Assembly: GCF_008389435.1 (NCBI RefSeq) | Contig: NZ_VUYS01000013.1 | Span: 53,768 to 99,657, forward strand | Source: Candidatus Nitrosocosmicus agrestis | Lineage (GTDB): Archaea; Thermoproteota; Nitrososphaeria; Nitrososphaerales; Nitrososphaeraceae | Reading direction: 5' to 3' | Length of the DNA: 45,890 nt | Shown: positions 9,463 to 15,956 of the stretch, piece after piece | Position numbering within the stretch: position 1 is the first letter of the stretch | Layout: every line of letters begins with the position of its first letter | Notes under the pieces: model-generated | What the model was told of the DNA's origin: nothing | The model's input: the letters and a program-made list of their open reading frames with translations, nothing else | The model's database searches: none | Position numbers and translations under genes: made by a program

Positions 9463-9978
9463 ATGCAAAACGTTGACAGTAGTGAGGATCCTTTTGTTAA
9501 AATAGCATCACTGATAGGTGGTGATGAGTATAATCAAGTTGCTAAAGCGTTATTAAAGACCGAAGATTCAACTGATGAAGAAATAGCTATTGCAACCGGT
9601 CTTCGAATCAATATAATTAGAAAGGTTCTTTATGATTTATTTGGAAAGGCATTGATTACAGGTATACGAGTAAAAGATGAAAAAAAGGGCTGGTTCGTAT
9701 ACCGGTGGCGAGCAAAGCGAGATCACGTAGATAATTTCATCGATAACCAAAAAAAGAAAATTTTGGAGAGATTGCAAAATAGGCTTGAGTATGAGGAATC
9801 ATCCGAATTTTATCATTGTGGAAATTCTGCTTGTGACCGAATCAAATTTGATTATGCAATAGAGCTTTTCTTTAAATGTCCAAACTGTAAAGAACCACTA
9901 AATATGGTAGATAATAGTAAACTAAAGGATGCTTTGAGATTTAAGATTGAACAATTGAGCACTGAACCTGTAAAATAG
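9463..9978 (+). CDS. tfe: Transcription initiation factor TFE (TFIIE alpha homologue)
   Basis: The 171-residue protein has an N-terminal winged helix (VAKALLKTEDSTDEEIAIATGL, then IIRKVLYDLF) and a basic linker helix. A C-terminal zinc ribbon follows, with CGNSACDR and CPNC supplying four cysteines. This is the archaeal TFE arrangement and length. TFE helps RNA polymerase open the promoter together with TBP and TFB. The gene is convergent with the riboflavin operon, with its stop only a base or so from the arfC stop. Confidence 0.95.
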   Translation: MQNVDSSEDPFVKIASLIGGDEYNQVAKALLKTEDSTDEEIAIATGLRINIIRKVLYDLFGKALITGIRVKDEKKGWFVYRWRAKRDHVDNFIDNQKKKILERLQNRLEYEESSEFYHCGNSACDRIKFDYAIELFFKCPNCKEPLNMVDNSKLKDALRFKIEQLSTEPVK

Positions 9979-9979
9979 A

Positions 9980-10738
9980 TTATTTTTTTTTACCCATATT
10001 GGGATTCTTGTAGTATAGTGTTATCTCACCAGTATTTTTCTTTTGCATCTTCATCAAAACGAGCTTTGGACATTTTTTTATAACTTCATATCCTTTACCA
10101 TCCACCAATGTGGTTGCATCCCTTCCACCAATTATGATCGGTGCTATTGTAATTATTAGCTCATCAAAAATATTGTTTTCTATGAAAGACCAGTTAATCT
10201 CTCCTCCTCCTTCTACAAGTATTGTTGAGATGGATTCATTTTCTAAAACCTTTAATAATTTCTTTAAATTTACTTTTTCTTTAGTTTTTGAATCCTTATC
10301 TATTACTGTTATTTTTAGACCTTGTTTTGATAGCTCTTTGAGCTTTGATTTGGGTGCGTCATTTGTGACTGCTATTATGGTTTCGACCTGATCCGCCGTT
10401 TTTACTATCTTTGACTTTAATGGTATCCTAGCTCTGCTATCTATAATCACACGTATTGGATTTTTGGAATTTTTTGATTTGATCTTGGCGGTATTATCTT
10501 TCTTGAGATCTGTGATATCTGCTTCTCTTAGTTTCAAATTTTTCCTTATTTGGGTTAGCCTCTCGGTTAGCATAGGATCATCGTTAATGACTGTATTTAT
10601 CCCAATTATGATTGCATCAACTTTCGATCTTAATTGGTGGACTCTTAGAAGATCTTTATTTGAAGAAATTTTTGTATCTCCAATAATTGTTGAGATTTTT
10701 CCATCTATGCTTGCTGCTACGTTCAAAATTACTTTCAA
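9980..10738 (-). CDS. arfC: 2,5-diamino-6-(ribosylamino)pyrimidinone 5'-phosphate reductase
   Basis: The sequence shows the RibD C-terminal reductase pattern: VAASIDGKIST near the N-terminus, IIGINTVINDDPMLTER, PIRVIIDSRARIP and the nucleotide-binding STILVEGGGEINWSF. It lacks the deaminase domain of bacterial RibD, as expected of archaeal ArfC, which reduces the ribosyl side chain using NAD(P)H. It is the last gene of the riboflavin operon. It starts at TTG, with GGGAG about 10 nt upstream, 15 nt after the amidohydrolase stop. Confidence 0.9.
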   Translation of the reverse strand: MKVILNVAASIDGKISTIIGDTKISSNKDLLRVHQLRSKVDAIIIGINTVINDDPMLTERLTQIRKNLKLREADITDLKKDNTAKIKSKNSKNPIRVIIDSRARIPLKSKIVKTADQVETIIAVTNDAPKSKLKELSKQGLKITVIDKDSKTKEKVNLKKLLKVLENESISTILVEGGGEINWSFIENNIFDELIITIAPIIIGGRDATTLVDGKGYEVIKKCPKLVLMKMQKKNTGEITLYYKNPNMGKKK

Positions 10739-10753
10739 AATATGACTCCCATT

Positions 10754-12304
10754 CTATTTTATGACTGTTTTTTCAAGTACGAGCTCGCCGTTTATCATTA
10801 CACCCTTTACGTGTTTTTCACTACACCTAGTTACAATAGATGTGTATGGATCAAATAGTGGATAAAGATCCAGATCGTATCTATCAATGAAAACAAGGTC
10901 AGCATTGTATCCTTGTTCTATGCATCCTCTACCGATTCCAAATATCTTGCCACCATTTACCGTAGCCATTTTTAATACATCCTTTGCATTAATAAAATGA
11001 GTATCTTTCTCGAGCGCTCTTTGACTTTTTAACAAAAAGTCCATTTCCCTAAACATGTCAGGAGAATTAAGCATTACATTGTCTGTTCCTATGCCGAGTT
11101 CAAAATGCAATTCTAGCATCTTTTTTATGGGGGATAATCCCGCGCCAAGAACACCATTTGCTCTTGGGCATACTATTATTTTCTTTTTGTTCCTGGATAA
11201 TAATTCCAATTCCATGTCGTTTGCATTAGTAACATGTACGTAGATATCTGGGTTGAGTAGCTTTAGTGTTCTTTGAATTTCAGTCGCACCATATCTTTTC
11301 ATAGATTCTTCTACAGCGCTTTTAGATTCGGCAGCATGAATTGCGGTGAGGGGTAATGAGATTTCATTTGTACCTTGATTTACTGCTTTCTTTGTCTTTT
11401 TGCTCTTTTGTCTAGCCACAATTTCATTATACCATGATAACATTTTGTCTGAATTTTCATTTGCACCGCTTATTCCAAACCCATGACTTTTTTTTAAAAT
11501 GGACTCGCCAGATTTTATAAAATAGGATTTTAATATAATTTCATCTTGACCTTTATTCTCATTTTGTCCATCTTCATCTAGCAAAATTACTTCCAGATCT
11601 GTGCAAGGCCCTTTTTGTCCTGTTCTTGCATTAATGATGTAAATATCTTTGTTTTTTTTACTTTTTGAATTATGTTTAAGCATTTGAGCAGATGGTTTTA
11701 TACTTTCATTTGGCGTTTTGGGTTTTTCGTTTCCTTTTGTATTTTGTGCAAAAGATTGTGAGTTGATTGTCGCTGATTTGGCAAGGTGCTGTGGTGGTAA
11801 CTTTGGGTTCAAGTCTATTCTTCCTAATATGATCCTATTTATAGGACTAGAATTAAGCGCAATCTCAAGCAAATCTACTCCTTGTAGTCCTCCTTCTCTG
11901 AAATCTACAAAGGTTGTTATTCCTTTCTTTATCATTGATATTGCTGTATTGCTAATCATTTGGATTAACTGAGAACGGGGAGTTTTGTCTAGAATGGTTT
12001 TTTTTATGCTGTAATGAGGATGAACCCTTGCATTAAGATCTTTATCCGATGAAATATCTTTTCCAATGGAATCCCCAATATGAGTGTGTGAGTTTATGAA
12101 TCCTGGAAGTATGATGAAACCTTCGGCGTCAATAACTTCTATTTGATCATTTATTTTCCTATTTTGATTTCTAAATTCTACGACATTTTTGTTTGAGATA
12201 TTTTCAATTATCCCGAATTCGTTAATCTCTATTATACCGCTGCGAACTAATTCAAGATTATCTCCTCGCAACATGGTTACATTTTTTAATAATTTTTGTT
12301 TCAA
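10754..12304 (-). CDS. Amidohydrolase-superfamily deaminase within the riboflavin operon
   Basis: The protein has a full set of deaminase-type amidohydrolase metal and catalytic residues. These are GFINSHTHIGDS (H73, H75), AIHAAES (H323 with E326), YVHVTNA (H357) and GIGTDN (D408). The pattern matches cytosine, guanine and S-adenosylhomocysteine deaminases. A charged, low-complexity insertion of roughly 150 residues (about 165-315) splits the barrel and explains the 516-residue length. The TTG start overlaps the TGA stop of arfA by four bases (TTGA), so the two are translationally coupled, and arfC follows after 15 nt. From the context I infer a pyrimidine deamination step in riboflavin synthesis. 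Deformylation of the ArfA product is a second possibility. Neither is proven. Confidence 0.85.
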   Translation of the reverse strand: MKQKLLKNVTMLRGDNLELVRSGIIEINEFGIIENISNKNVVEFRNQNRKINDQIEVIDAEGFIILPGFINSHTHIGDSIGKDISSDKDLNARVHPHYSIKKTILDKTPRSQLIQMISNTAISMIKKGITTFVDFREGGLQGVDLLEIALNSSPINRIILGRIDLNPKLPPQHLAKSATINSQSFAQNTKGNEKPKTPNESIKPSAQMLKHNSKSKKNKDIYIINARTGQKGPCTDLEVILLDEDGQNENKGQDEIILKSYFIKSGESILKKSHGFGISGANENSDKMLSWYNEIVARQKSKKTKKAVNQGTNEISLPLTAIHAAESKSAVEESMKRYGATEIQRTLKLLNPDIYVHVTNANDMELELLSRNKKKIIVCPRANGVLGAGLSPIKKMLELHFELGIGTDNVMLNSPDMFREMDFLLKSQRALEKDTHFINAKDVLKMATVNGGKIFGIGRGCIEQGYNADLVFIDRYDLDLYPLFDPYTSIVTRCSEKHVKGVMINGELVLEKTVIK

Positions 12305-13065
12305 TTTGATTCGATTACATGCATTATCTTTCCATTTTTTCTGAGCTCTCTTATTTGATCAAGCGATTTGGTAGCTAATTTTACTGCAGTTCTAGCGTTC
12401 ACTCCACTTCCTATTCCACAGTTGAATTTTACACCAGTGACGTCTTTGATGTTTTCAAGTATCTCTAATATCTTTTCCATTTTGATACTGTTTTTTGCTA
12501 CTATCATAAAGTTATCTCCTCCTAAGAAGAACGTAAGACTGTCTTCCTTTAAAAAAACATCCGAAACCATTGAATGAATTTTTATTAACAGATTTGTAAT
12601 TTCATAAGATGACAATTCATTTGCAATTGCTGTTGAACTATCTACATCAATGTGAATTATCTTCAGGTTGTCCTCATGCTCAGAAGATGAATTTTCAATG
12701 CTTGCAAAAATGCTTGGAAAAGCAATGTATTTTTCTCTATTTTTTTTGATCATTTGTATTTTGTGATCCGCTTCCAATGGTGTCACGCCAGATGCTATAG
12801 TCATGGAGATCTTTACTTGATTGTATTTTTTTGATAGTTTTTCATGAATGACTTTATGGCGTTGGAGGGAGATTTGATTGGATATTGTTATAAACTCATC
12901 AAATCGATTGAAAAATACAATACCATTTTCATCTGAAAAAAAACTTTGCAGGTCTGCATAGATTCTGGCCTGAAGAATCTGCAACTGATGCTCTCTGTCG
13001 CTTCCAAGTTCAAGTGTCCAAGGACCATATCCTTCTAGTCTTATAATCGTTAGTTGACAGCCCAA
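12301..13065 (-). CDS. arfA: GTP cyclohydrolase III (FAPy-forming)
   Basis: The N-terminus LTIIRLEGYGPWTLELGSDRE, the segment LQARIYADLQSFF and IVFFNRFDEFI match the archaeal GTP cyclohydrolase III family from memory. So do the later HIDVDSSTAI and FFLGGDNFM, the latter carrying the GGDN turn of its GGDEF-like fold. The enzyme opens GTP to the formylamino-pyrimidine nucleotide, the first step of archaeal riboflavin and F420 synthesis. The start is TTG. The stop overlaps the start of the downstream amidohydrolase. The deformylase ArfB, which should act next, is not in this operon. Confidence 0.92.
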   Translation of the reverse strand: MGCQLTIIRLEGYGPWTLELGSDREHQLQILQARIYADLQSFFSDENGIVFFNRFDEFITISNQISLQRHKVIHEKLSKKYNQVKISMTIASGVTPLEADHKIQMIKKNREKYIAFPSIFASIENSSSEHEDNLKIIHIDVDSSTAIANELSSYEITNLLIKIHSMVSDVFLKEDSLTFFLGGDNFMIVAKNSIKMEKILEILENIKDVTGVKFNCGIGSGVNARTAVKLATKSLDQIRELRKNGKIMHVIESN

Positions 13066-13086: not shown

Positions 13087-13548
13087 TTAGTATGGTGTTC
13101 TTGTTTCTTTTGTTTTCTCATGCCTTATCTTCTTTAATCGTCTTGTCATTAAAATTGCAGCATTAATTGCGTGCTGTGTTACAGGAGTAATTCTGGCCTC
13201 GGCTTGCTCAAACGTCATGTCTGGACCTGTTATTCCCAAAGAAACTGGCTTTCGATGTTTCAGCGAAAGCTCTCCAATAAGATTTACAGTGGAATTAGTT
13301 ATGACTTTGTCGTGACTTGTTTCTCCCTTAATCACTGCTCCTAATGTAACAACAGCATCTATATTTTTTTTCTTCAATAATTCTTCTACCATAAGAGGCA
13401 TATCAAATACTCCAGGGACCTTGCAGGTATAGAGAATCTTTGCGTTGTTATGTTCGCTAGCTATGTGCTTTTTGGCTTCATTTAACATATCAAAAGTTAT
13501 TTCATTGTTGAATTCTGATACAACAATTCCAATTCTAACTTTTGCCAT
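13087..13548 (-). CDS. ribH: 6,7-dimethyl-8-ribityllumazine synthase
   Basis: The sequence has the family landmarks RIGIVVSEFNNEIT, VPGVFDMPLM, VVTLGAVIKGETSHD and PVSLGITGPDMT followed by EQAEAR. The HD pair in GETSHD includes the catalytic histidine. The length of 153 is normal. The enzyme joins the ribitylamino-pyrimidine with dihydroxybutanone phosphate. The ATG overlaps the ribB stop by one base (TAATG), giving tight coupling. Confidence 0.95.
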   Translation of the reverse strand: MAKVRIGIVVSEFNNEITFDMLNEAKKHIASEHNNAKILYTCKVPGVFDMPLMVEELLKKKNIDAVVTLGAVIKGETSHDKVITNSTVNLIGELSLKHRKPVSLGITGPDMTFEQAEARITPVTQHAINAAILMTRRLKKIRHEKTKETRTPY

Positions 13549-14261
13549 TATTTTTCGTATGATTTTGCATACGCTATTAGTTCTTTTGCTTCTATAATTA
13601 CCAAATTATTATTTTTGGCATACTCTACTGCATCTTTGTAAGACAGGGCTTTGTGGTTATACGGATCTAGCATTTCACAAATAGTTGTTATGTTTGTAAT
13701 ATTTGCAATTTTTGTAAGAAAGATTGACATTTCTGTATGTCCTTTTCTCTCATTCAATAGACCCTTTGATGCAATCAGGATTGGTACATGACCAGGTGTT
13801 CTGAAACTATTTTGGAATTTTTCAAGAATCCTCTTTTGAATATTTGTGTCTGTAGTAGCAGTTAACTCTGAGCATATATTTGCCAAAGATGATATTGTTA
13901 ACGCCCTGTCATTATCTGTTATACCTGTATAGGTGTTATTGTGGTTGATTGTTATTGAAAATGATGGTTTATCTCCATATGGAGAGCTGTTTTGGTTTAT
14001 TTGTGCTATGGTTCTATTGGCATTTCCAAAAATGCTTAAAACATCATACAAATAAGGTAACCCCAATTTTGCAGATAGTTCCTTAGATATTGCCGTACAA
14101 ATTAACCCGCCAGCATTTTTTCTCATAATTGCGATGTGTTCAGGCGTAATACTGTTTGAGGAAATCACCAGATCAACTTCATCTTCTCGGTTGTCATCAT
14201 CGTGAATCAAGACAAAATTTCCGTTTCTTAATGAAGTTACGGCCTCATAAATCCTAGTCAA
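13548..14261 (-). CDS. ribB: 3,4-dihydroxy-2-butanone 4-phosphate synthase
   Basis: The protein shows FVLIHDDDNREDEVDLV with its acidic metal-binding site, then MRKNAGGLICTAIS, and later FRTPGHVPIL and ERKGHTEMSIFL. These are the DHBP synthase signatures. It is the stand-alone form with no GTP cyclohydrolase II domain, consistent with arfA supplying that step. It starts at TTG and ends in a one-base overlap with ribH. The product is the four-carbon donor for lumazine synthase. Confidence 0.95.
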   Translation of the reverse strand: MTRIYEAVTSLRNGNFVLIHDDDNREDEVDLVISSNSITPEHIAIMRKNAGGLICTAISKELSAKLGLPYLYDVLSIFGNANRTIAQINQNSSPYGDKPSFSITINHNNTYTGITDNDRALTISSLANICSELTATTDTNIQKRILEKFQNSFRTPGHVPILIASKGLLNERKGHTEMSIFLTKIANITNITTICEMLDPYNHKALSYKDAVEYAKNNNLVIIEAKELIAYAKSYEK

Positions 14262-14278: not shown

Positions 14279-14971
14279 TTAATGTTTATATGCTTTACTA
14301 TTTTCCTTGTTATTACCAAAAAACTGGTAAATATTCATTAAGTATCGGGATAGAATGTCTATCTCTATGTTAACAGTATCATGCACTCCTTTGATACCAA
14401 GGGTTGTTTTATCCAGCGTATGAGGAACAAGTGATATTTCCACAATATCTTTATGTACGTTGACCACGGTCAAGCTAATTCCGTCAATTGCTATTGAGCC
14501 TTTCTGAGAAATAAAAGGTAGGAGATCTCTGTTTTCTATTTGGATGCTTATCTTGCTTCCTGTTTCACCCTTTTCAATTTTCTTTATAACTCCAGTACCA
14601 TCTACATGTCCTAGTACAAAATGGCCTTCTAACCTACCTCCAACCTGTAGACTCCTTTCTATGTTTACCTTGTCGCCTTTTTTTAATTTGATGAAATTAG
14701 TTTTTTTTATTGTTTCATCTATGACTTGAAAGGTAGCTTTTGACTTTACTAATTTTGCTACTGTCAGGCATACCCCATTTACTGATATACTATCACCTAG
14801 TTTTACCCCATTTGATTTACCCAGTCGGAGAGTGATTTCTGTATGGTAATTTCCTCTCTTTGAATTATTCTCAGAATTAACTTTAGTTTTTTTATTATTT
14901 CGATGGGTATCTGGAAAGGATCTTTCGATACTTTCAACTTTAGCTAAATATTCCGTTATCCCTGTGAACAC
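14279..14971 (-). CDS. ribE: Riboflavin synthase, trimeric two-domain type
   Basis: The start MFTGITEYLAKV at a GTG codon is the classic beginning of the bacterial-type alpha subunit. Two lumazine-binding repeats follow. The first has GDSISVNGVCLTV and the second has GSIAIDGISLTVV, with GHFVLGHVDGTG between them. Many archaea instead use a pentameric synthase related to RibH, so this form points to an enzyme shared with bacteria. It contains a short Lys/Asn-rich insertion near residue 25. It is the first gene of the riboflavin operon; a weak TATA-like ATTTATGG lies about 20 nt upstream. The gene is also called ribC in some organisms. Confidence 0.93.
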   Translation of the reverse strand: MFTGITEYLAKVESIERSFPDTHRNNKKTKVNSENNSKRGNYHTEITLRLGKSNGVKLGDSISVNGVCLTVAKLVKSKATFQVIDETIKKTNFIKLKKGDKVNIERSLQVGGRLEGHFVLGHVDGTGVIKKIEKGETGSKISIQIENRDLLPFISQKGSIAIDGISLTVVNVHKDIVEISLVPHTLDKTTLGIKGVHDTVNIEIDILSRYLMNIYQFFGNNKENSKAYKH

Positions 14972-15074: not shown

Positions 15075-15956
15075 TTATTCCGTACCCAGAATTCTCTTTG
15101 CTTGTTTGTAATGGACCGCGTCAATCATTTTTCCTTCTAGTTTTATGGCTCCAGTTGATTTATTATTTTGTGCATTTTCTAGTGATTGAATAACTTTGTT
15201 TGCCCAATCGATGTCTTGCTGAGATGGGCTAAACGTTTTATGCACTTTTTCTATTTGGGATGGGTGTATGATGCATTTCCCCGTATATCCAAAATTTTTC
15301 CCCATCTTTAGATCTTTGATCAGTCCATCTACGTCATTGATATCTTGCCATATCGAATCAATTGAGTCTACTCCTGCAGCCCTTGCGTCAACAGGTACTT
15401 TGGCCCTACCGTAAATGTAACTGCTAAGTAGGTCGTTATCATAATTGTCTATTTTCATGTTGTGTAAAAAGTCAAAAATACCAAAAACAAGGGCAGTTAT
15501 TCTTGAGTCGGATTTCGCTATATTAAAAGCGTTAATAACCCCTAATGATGATTCGATCGACGGCAGGATCTTTACATGCCCTCGTGGTATATTTCTTTCA
15601 CTTTCATTTTTAGTGATAATTTGAGAAATTTTTTTTATTTGGACTTCGTCGTCTACCTTTGGGATTACTATTGCATCAATTCCTTGAATAACAATTTTTT
15701 CTAAATCCTCTGCTATTTGGTCTGATGAAGGAGCATTTGTTCTTACGGCTATTATTCTTTCCTTCTTGATGTCATTGCTACTATCATTAAACTCTCCAAT
15801 TATATTTTCTATATATTGTCTGGCTACAACTTTTTCATTTATGGGGACCGAATCCTCTAGATCAAAACACAGAATATCTGAATTTACTACTTTGGATTTT
15901 TCCAAAAATCTTTGATTGTTCCCAGGAATAAAAATTAGACTTCGTGAACTGCCCAC
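15075..15956 (-). CDS. CitE-like (HpcH/HpaI family) CoA-ester lyase
   Basis: The N-terminus RSLIFIPGNNQRFLEKS and the segment CFDLEDSVPINEK match the citrate lyase beta / malyl-CoA lyase family. AVRTNAP, LPSIESSLGVINAF and GYTGKCIIHPSQIEKV also match. The acidic residues in DLEDS and IES and the lyase motif near GKCIIHP are present. Free-standing members cleave or form malyl-, citramalyl- or similar CoA esters; the substrate here is not clear. Translation starts at GTG. The gene follows the dehydrogenase at 15989 with a 32-nt gap, so the two may be cotranscribed. Confidence 0.85.
   Translation of the reverse strand: MGSSRSLIFIPGNNQRFLEKSKVVNSDILCFDLEDSVPINEKVVARQYIENIIGEFNDSSNDIKKERIIAVRTNAPSSDQIAEDLEKIVIQGIDAIVIPKVDDEVQIKKISQIITKNESERNIPRGHVKILPSIESSLGVINAFNIAKSDSRITALVFGIFDFLHNMKIDNYDNDLLSSYIYGRAKVPVDARAAGVDSIDSIWQDINDVDGLIKDLKMGKNFGYTGKCIIHPSQIEKVHKTFSPSQQDIDWANKVIQSLENAQNNKSTGAIKLEGKMIDAVHYKQAKRILGTE

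Follow-up and report, generated by a model that had tools for sequence, protein, structure and literature searches.

The riboflavin operon and its amidohydrolase gene

The window, by which we mean the whole 45,890-nt stretch of the Candidatus Nitrosocosmicus agrestis genome that was analyzed, carries six genes on the reverse strand in the order ribE-ribB-ribH-arfA-amidohydrolase-arfC, separated by gaps of 17, -1, 21, -4 and 15 nt. The fifth of these is an open reading frame at 10754–12304 (-) that starts with TTG and encodes 516 amino acids, and we propose that it is a riboflavin-pathway 2-amino-pyrimidinone deaminase (predicted) of the amidohydrolase superfamily. The neighboring genes were identified by profile matches. 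Riboflavin synthase (ribE, 14279–14971, -; TIGR00187), DHBP synthase (ribB, 13548–14261, -; TIGR00506) and lumazine synthase (ribH, 13087–13548, -; TIGR00114) all score over cut-off, GTP cyclohydrolase III (arfA, 12301–13065, -) matches GCH_III PF05165 with 189 bits, and the archaeal pyrimidine reductase without a deaminase domain (arfC, 9980–10738, -) matches TIGR01508 (rib_reduct_arch) over cut-off with 200 bits, while TIGR00326 matches it over the reductase half alone. An earlier reading made from the sequence only had placed the gene between arfA and arfC, overlapping the former, and both the position and the identities of the flanking genes hold, with an overlap of 4 nt and arfC lying 15 nt downstream.

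Two further genes border the operon. A gene for an HpcH/HpaI-type lyase (15075–15956, -) lies directly upstream of ribE, and many thaumarchaeal loci have such a gene close to the rib operon. A TFIIE-alpha-like transcription factor gene (9463–9978, +) is convergent with arfC and occupies the same place in many related loci.

Family membership, active site and predicted fold

The protein scores 140 bits against PF01979 (cut-off 25), which places it in the aminohydrolase branch of the amidohydrolase superfamily, and it passes the curated cut-off of the NF005552/PRK07213 'chlorohydrolase' family (315.7 vs 294 bits). It is the only NF005552 member in the 3.2-Mb, 98.9%-complete genome, and NF005552 was the top NCBIfam match for every family member scanned. 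Despite a family name that suggests chlorohydrolase activity, we found no evidence of such activity, and the gene's surroundings point instead to riboflavin synthesis. The protein gave no match to PF02633 (creatininase) or to the CDA-fold profiles TIGR00326 and PF00383, and NF033501 was not among the matches listed.

The full HxH, HxxE, H, D set noticed in the first reading is present, and none of its residues varies across 55 family members. It comprises the putative metal ligands H73-x-H75 (12080–12088, -), also found in 13 of 14 paralogues with a gap in the remaining one; H323-A-A-E326 (11327–11338, -), predicted to supply a metal ligand and the catalytic acid/base; H357 (11234–11236, -); and the putative metal ligand D408, which all 14 paralogues share and which is followed by N409 (together 11078–11083, -). 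N409 belongs to a second group of residues that sets the family apart from the paralogues. N409, D78 (12071–12073, -) and K101 (12002–12004, -) are each present in 55/55 family members and 0/14 paralogues, E137 in the DFREGG motif (11894–11896, -) in 54/55 and 0/14, R381 in CPR[SA]N (11162–11164, -) in 51/55 and 0/14, and R493 (10826–10828, -) in 53/55 and in none of the paralogue residues listed. From this distribution we infer roles in substrate recognition for the six residues; K101, R381 and R493 could possibly contact a phosphate.

In a tree of 69 sequences the 14 paralogues form one clade with 100/100 support, and the window protein groups with its thaumarchaeal orthologues. The paralogues that were scanned match the models for MTA/SAH/5'-deoxyadenosine deaminase, SsnA and related NCBIfam entries. 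One low-scoring protein (L210) was considered as a further paralogue, but the tree and its NCBIfam match place it inside the NF005552 family. Identity of the family to its crenarchaeal-type members is about 21–28%, a divergence at which function could differ at the extremes.

The AlphaFold model is a TIM barrel with a mean pLDDT of 85 and a pTM of 0.85, and its less confident parts lie mainly in residues 169–239. This stretch, on which the first reading did not remark, is a Lys/Asn/Ser-rich insert of about 70 residues (11588–11800, -) with pLDDT mostly below 50; it corresponds to an alignment gap in compact orthologues, differs in length in a homologue from the same genus, and is, judging from the model, probably disordered. 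The nearest folds found by Foldseek in the PDB were adenosine/MTA deaminases, atrazine chlorohydrolase, isocytosine deaminase Vcz, triazine hydrolase and guanine deaminases. Such a fold by itself leaves the substrate unfixed; the superfamily also includes chlorohydrolases and iminohydrolases. Guanine deaminase and isocytosine deaminase Vcz (8is4, 7ww2, 2i9u) have the same fold as the window protein at 12–18% identity. Guanine and isocytosine deaminases remove the C2 amino group of a 2-amino-4-oxopyrimidine ring, which is the same chemistry as the reaction that we propose here.

Conservation of gene order

A member of NF005552 over the cut-off was present in all 50 genomes of the organism's order in a 300-genome sample of the phylum. 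The first reading had suggested a survey of whether the gene always lies in rib clusters in thaumarchaea that lack ribD, and within the order the linkage is kept: all 27 loci fetched retain the order arfA-amidohydrolase-arfC, mostly together with ribB and ribH, and with both flanking genes kept in every one of them the arrangement is not due to chance. In a separate scan of GTDB, arfC was found within the amidohydrolase locus in 80/80 loci. The majority of these are thaumarchaeal, and they also include Bathyarchaeota (ribH-arfA-gene-arfC), a Jordarchaeia MAG of the Asgard archaea (ribB..ribH-arfA-gene-arfC) and a Methanosarcinaceae MAG.

Of 40 distant loci, taken in descending order of score, 19 contain rib genes at a distance of up to about 6 kb, in orders such as ribB-ribH-ribH-arfA-gene, arfC-arfA-ribB-ribH-gene and the Sulfolobus-like ribB-ribH-arfA-gene. 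Methanogen-like loci (L181, L183, L187, L119) show a recurring run of amidohydrolase, universal stress protein, CBS-domain protein and arfC; the two genes in between were considered as missing pathway enzymes, and checking them revealed nothing obvious. In most Halobacteriota loci examined the amidohydrolase lies away from rib genes, which we count against a role as deaminase. Orthologues outside rib clusters thus exist, but we found none with a known other substrate.

Co-occurrence with the archaeal pathway

We surveyed 151 genomes of the phylum, assigning family members by score and by frame length, the paralogues being mostly about 430 aa or longer. ArfA was found over cut-off in 57 genomes and every one of these has a family member (partial in G141 and weak in G074), 90 genomes have neither, and four have the amidohydrolase without ArfA (Fisher p = 3e-37, a statistic that ignores kinship). 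The two genes also vary together at short range. Within one family (f24), genus g61 has both and genera g42 and g79 have neither, and within another (f5) a single genome (G044) has both and the other sampled genomes have neither.

In three of the four genomes that have the amidohydrolase without ArfA, ArfC adjoins it (L178, L179, L219). Among genomes of this kind, GTP cyclohydrolase II was found only in the fourth, G007 (76% complete), and in G302. The others (G019, G103 and G109) have ArfC next to it, and neither ArfA nor GTP cyclohydrolase II was detected in them; a comparison of deaminase and deformylase roles by way of that enzyme is therefore uninformative.

Counting against the proposed role are five Thermoproteota genomes (G080, G094, G130, G148, G115) that have an ArfC-type reductase and no family member. 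Two of the reductases from these exceptional genomes were examined, and both pass the cut-off for ArfC. Neither ArfA nor GTP cyclohydrolase II was found in the five genomes, and no rib genes were seen among the neighbors scanned around three of the ArfC genes (L215, L217, L218). In these genomes (loci L215–L218) the pathway may differ, or else the reductase may have another role.

Discussion

We suggest that the amidohydrolase is the deaminase of the archaeal riboflavin pathway, removing the 2-amino group from the ArfC product by hydrolysis, and we put the probability of this prediction at roughly 85%. The assignment rests on the gene, its motifs, the operon, conservation, co-occurrence and the predicted fold, and from these the substrate, the reaction, the number of metals and the roles of residues are extrapolated. 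In the proposed scheme ArfA would open GTP and an ArfB-type enzyme would then remove formate. Reduction of the ribosyl side chain to ribityl by ArfC would follow and produce 2,5-diamino-6-ribitylamino-4(3H)-pyrimidinone 5'-phosphate. Next, the amidohydrolase would activate water with a single divalent metal held by H73, H75, H323 and D408, and with E326 and H357 as acid/base it would hydrolyze the C2 amino group to yield 5-amino-6-ribitylamino-uracil 5'-phosphate and ammonia. The phosphate may be held by the family-specific K101, R381 and R493, and groups of the pyrimidine or the ribityl chain by D78, E137 and N409.

The gene lies directly after arfA, amidohydrolases are able to cleave amides and arfB is missing from the operon, all of which would also suit a deformylase with ArfB function acting on the formamide made by ArfA, the alternative raised in the first reading. 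The absence of arfB holds for the window but not for the genome, where two genes on other contigs match the creatininase family (PF02633). Their agreement with the ArfB model is weak (37.6 bits, cut-off 180) or absent, and the ArfB of this organism is therefore not firmly assigned. At least one creatininase-family gene is nevertheless present in 23/23 sampled genomes of the order and in 56 of the 57 genomes with arfA, so that deformylation has another candidate wherever the amidohydrolase and arfA occur, with the exception of one genome (G125), which argues for the deaminase. Furthermore, in five genomes (G018, G034, G065, G141, G076) arfA has the creatininase gene as its neighbor and the amidohydrolase is found at another place or on a different contig, the amidohydrolase stays beside arfC in the three loci where arfA is undetected, and the fold neighbors are mostly deaminases. 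M. jannaschii, in which ArfB is proven (Grochowski 2009, as cited in PMC9478397), also matches NF005552. We consider a deformylase improbable. A purine-salvage aminohydrolase (an MTA, SAH, 5'-deoxyadenosine or guanine deaminase) that is in the operon by chance would fit the nearest solved structures, which include MTA/adenosine and guanine deaminases, and the weaker NCBIfam matches of the protein to N-ethylammeline chlorohydrolase and 5'-deoxyadenosine deaminase. The MTA/SAH/5'-deoxyadenosine deaminases (4gbd, 4f0r, TM0936; PRK07228, PRK06038) do have the fold and the metal ligand set in common with the window protein. Yet the protein stays far below the cut-offs of their models (PRK08393, 139.6 vs 617; PRK07228, 112.8 vs 522), and their archaeal paralogues form the fully supported separate clade without D78, K101, E137, R381, N409 and R493. 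A recognizable MTA-type paralogue also coexists with the family member in several genomes (e.g., G300, G305, G325, G364), and co-occurrence with arfA is complete in the sample; a chance neighbor from purine salvage seems very improbable to us.

The deaminase could also act on another form of the intermediate, before the ArfC step or once the phosphate has been removed; this variant is contained within the main reading. Genomics does not fix the order of the steps, and the archaeal phosphatase EC 3.1.3.104 is likewise a gap according to PMC8305020. That study also cites a paper whose title (Graupner 2002) reports that archaea reduce before they deaminate, and the invariant or near-invariant K101, R381 and R493 would fit an anionic substrate, for which reasons we regard the variant as unlikely. 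The RibD deaminases of bacteria and fungi have the CDA fold, and two CDA-fold proteins are encoded in the genome, so one of these might be the riboflavin deaminase while the amidohydrolase does something else. Neither is RibD-like: one is an anti-phage dCTP deaminase (L123:826–2301 on contig C18; NF041025, 448 bits, over cut-off) and the other, ComEB/dCMP-deaminase-like, reaches 20 bits with the RibD model, for which the cut-off is 156. No RibD over cut-off was found in the 151 genomes of the phylum, in which TIGR00326 matches cover the reductase half alone except for two genomes (G014, G022) with weak matches to the deaminase half. A control search found no PF00383 protein in either M. jannaschii or S. 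acidocaldarius, and the CDA fold is therefore not the general archaeal answer; both genomes match NF005552. We give hardly any credence to a CDA-fold riboflavin deaminase in this organism. With no RibD-type deaminase found elsewhere in the genome and no orthologue with a known other substrate, we favor the amidohydrolase as the deaminase, in agreement with the sequence-only reading.

As for the anti-phage dCTP deaminase, we note that it is a defense gene in an archaeon.

The RibD deaminase domain catalyzes the same type of reaction as that proposed here, in bacteria before the reductase, but has an unrelated fold, and the window family would be its non-homologous replacement. For the archaea as a whole, we think it probable that an amidohydrolase replaces the CDA-fold RibD domain in the deamination of the riboflavin (and F420) precursor, as an ancient non-homologous replacement marked by the D78/K101/E137/R381/N409/R493 signature and common to ammonia-oxidizing archaea, Sulfolobus-like lineages, Bathyarchaeota, Asgards, methanogens and haloarchaea. 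The deamination step is common to the archaeal riboflavin and F420 pathways. If the assignment is true, one remaining gap in archaeal flavin synthesis would be closed across ammonia oxidizers, methanogens and acidophiles, a large number of genes now annotated as 'chlorohydrolase' could be corrected, and there would be a clean case of two unrelated folds running one type of reaction. Mutagenesis of the six-residue signature offers a direct test of the assignment.

The sequence-only reading described the enzyme as missing in archaea. In the accessible literature, which covers few subscription papers, we found no experimental proof of an archaeal enzyme for the deamination step, and to this extent the description stands, but a predicted gene is already listed. 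For riboflavin synthesis in haloarchaea, PMC8305020 (2021) names three gaps with candidates for two, among them HVO_1235 as ArfB candidate, and, citing Rodionova 2017, has HVO_2483 (34% to MJ0699) in a row between ArfC and EC 3.1.3.104. The position of this row, together with the text on three gaps and two candidates, suggests that it stands for the deaminase. The deaminase hypothesis is thus less new than first stated and has a precedent, to which the gene neighborhoods lend strong support; the contribution here is independent wide comparative support, the residue signature and a weakened deformylase alternative. The control search returned NF005552 matches in the genomes of both M. jannaschii and H. 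volcanii, recorded by genome rather than by locus tag, and MJ0699 and HVO_2483 likely belong to the family. They are predicted for the same step as the window member, which differs in having the insert of about 70 residues.
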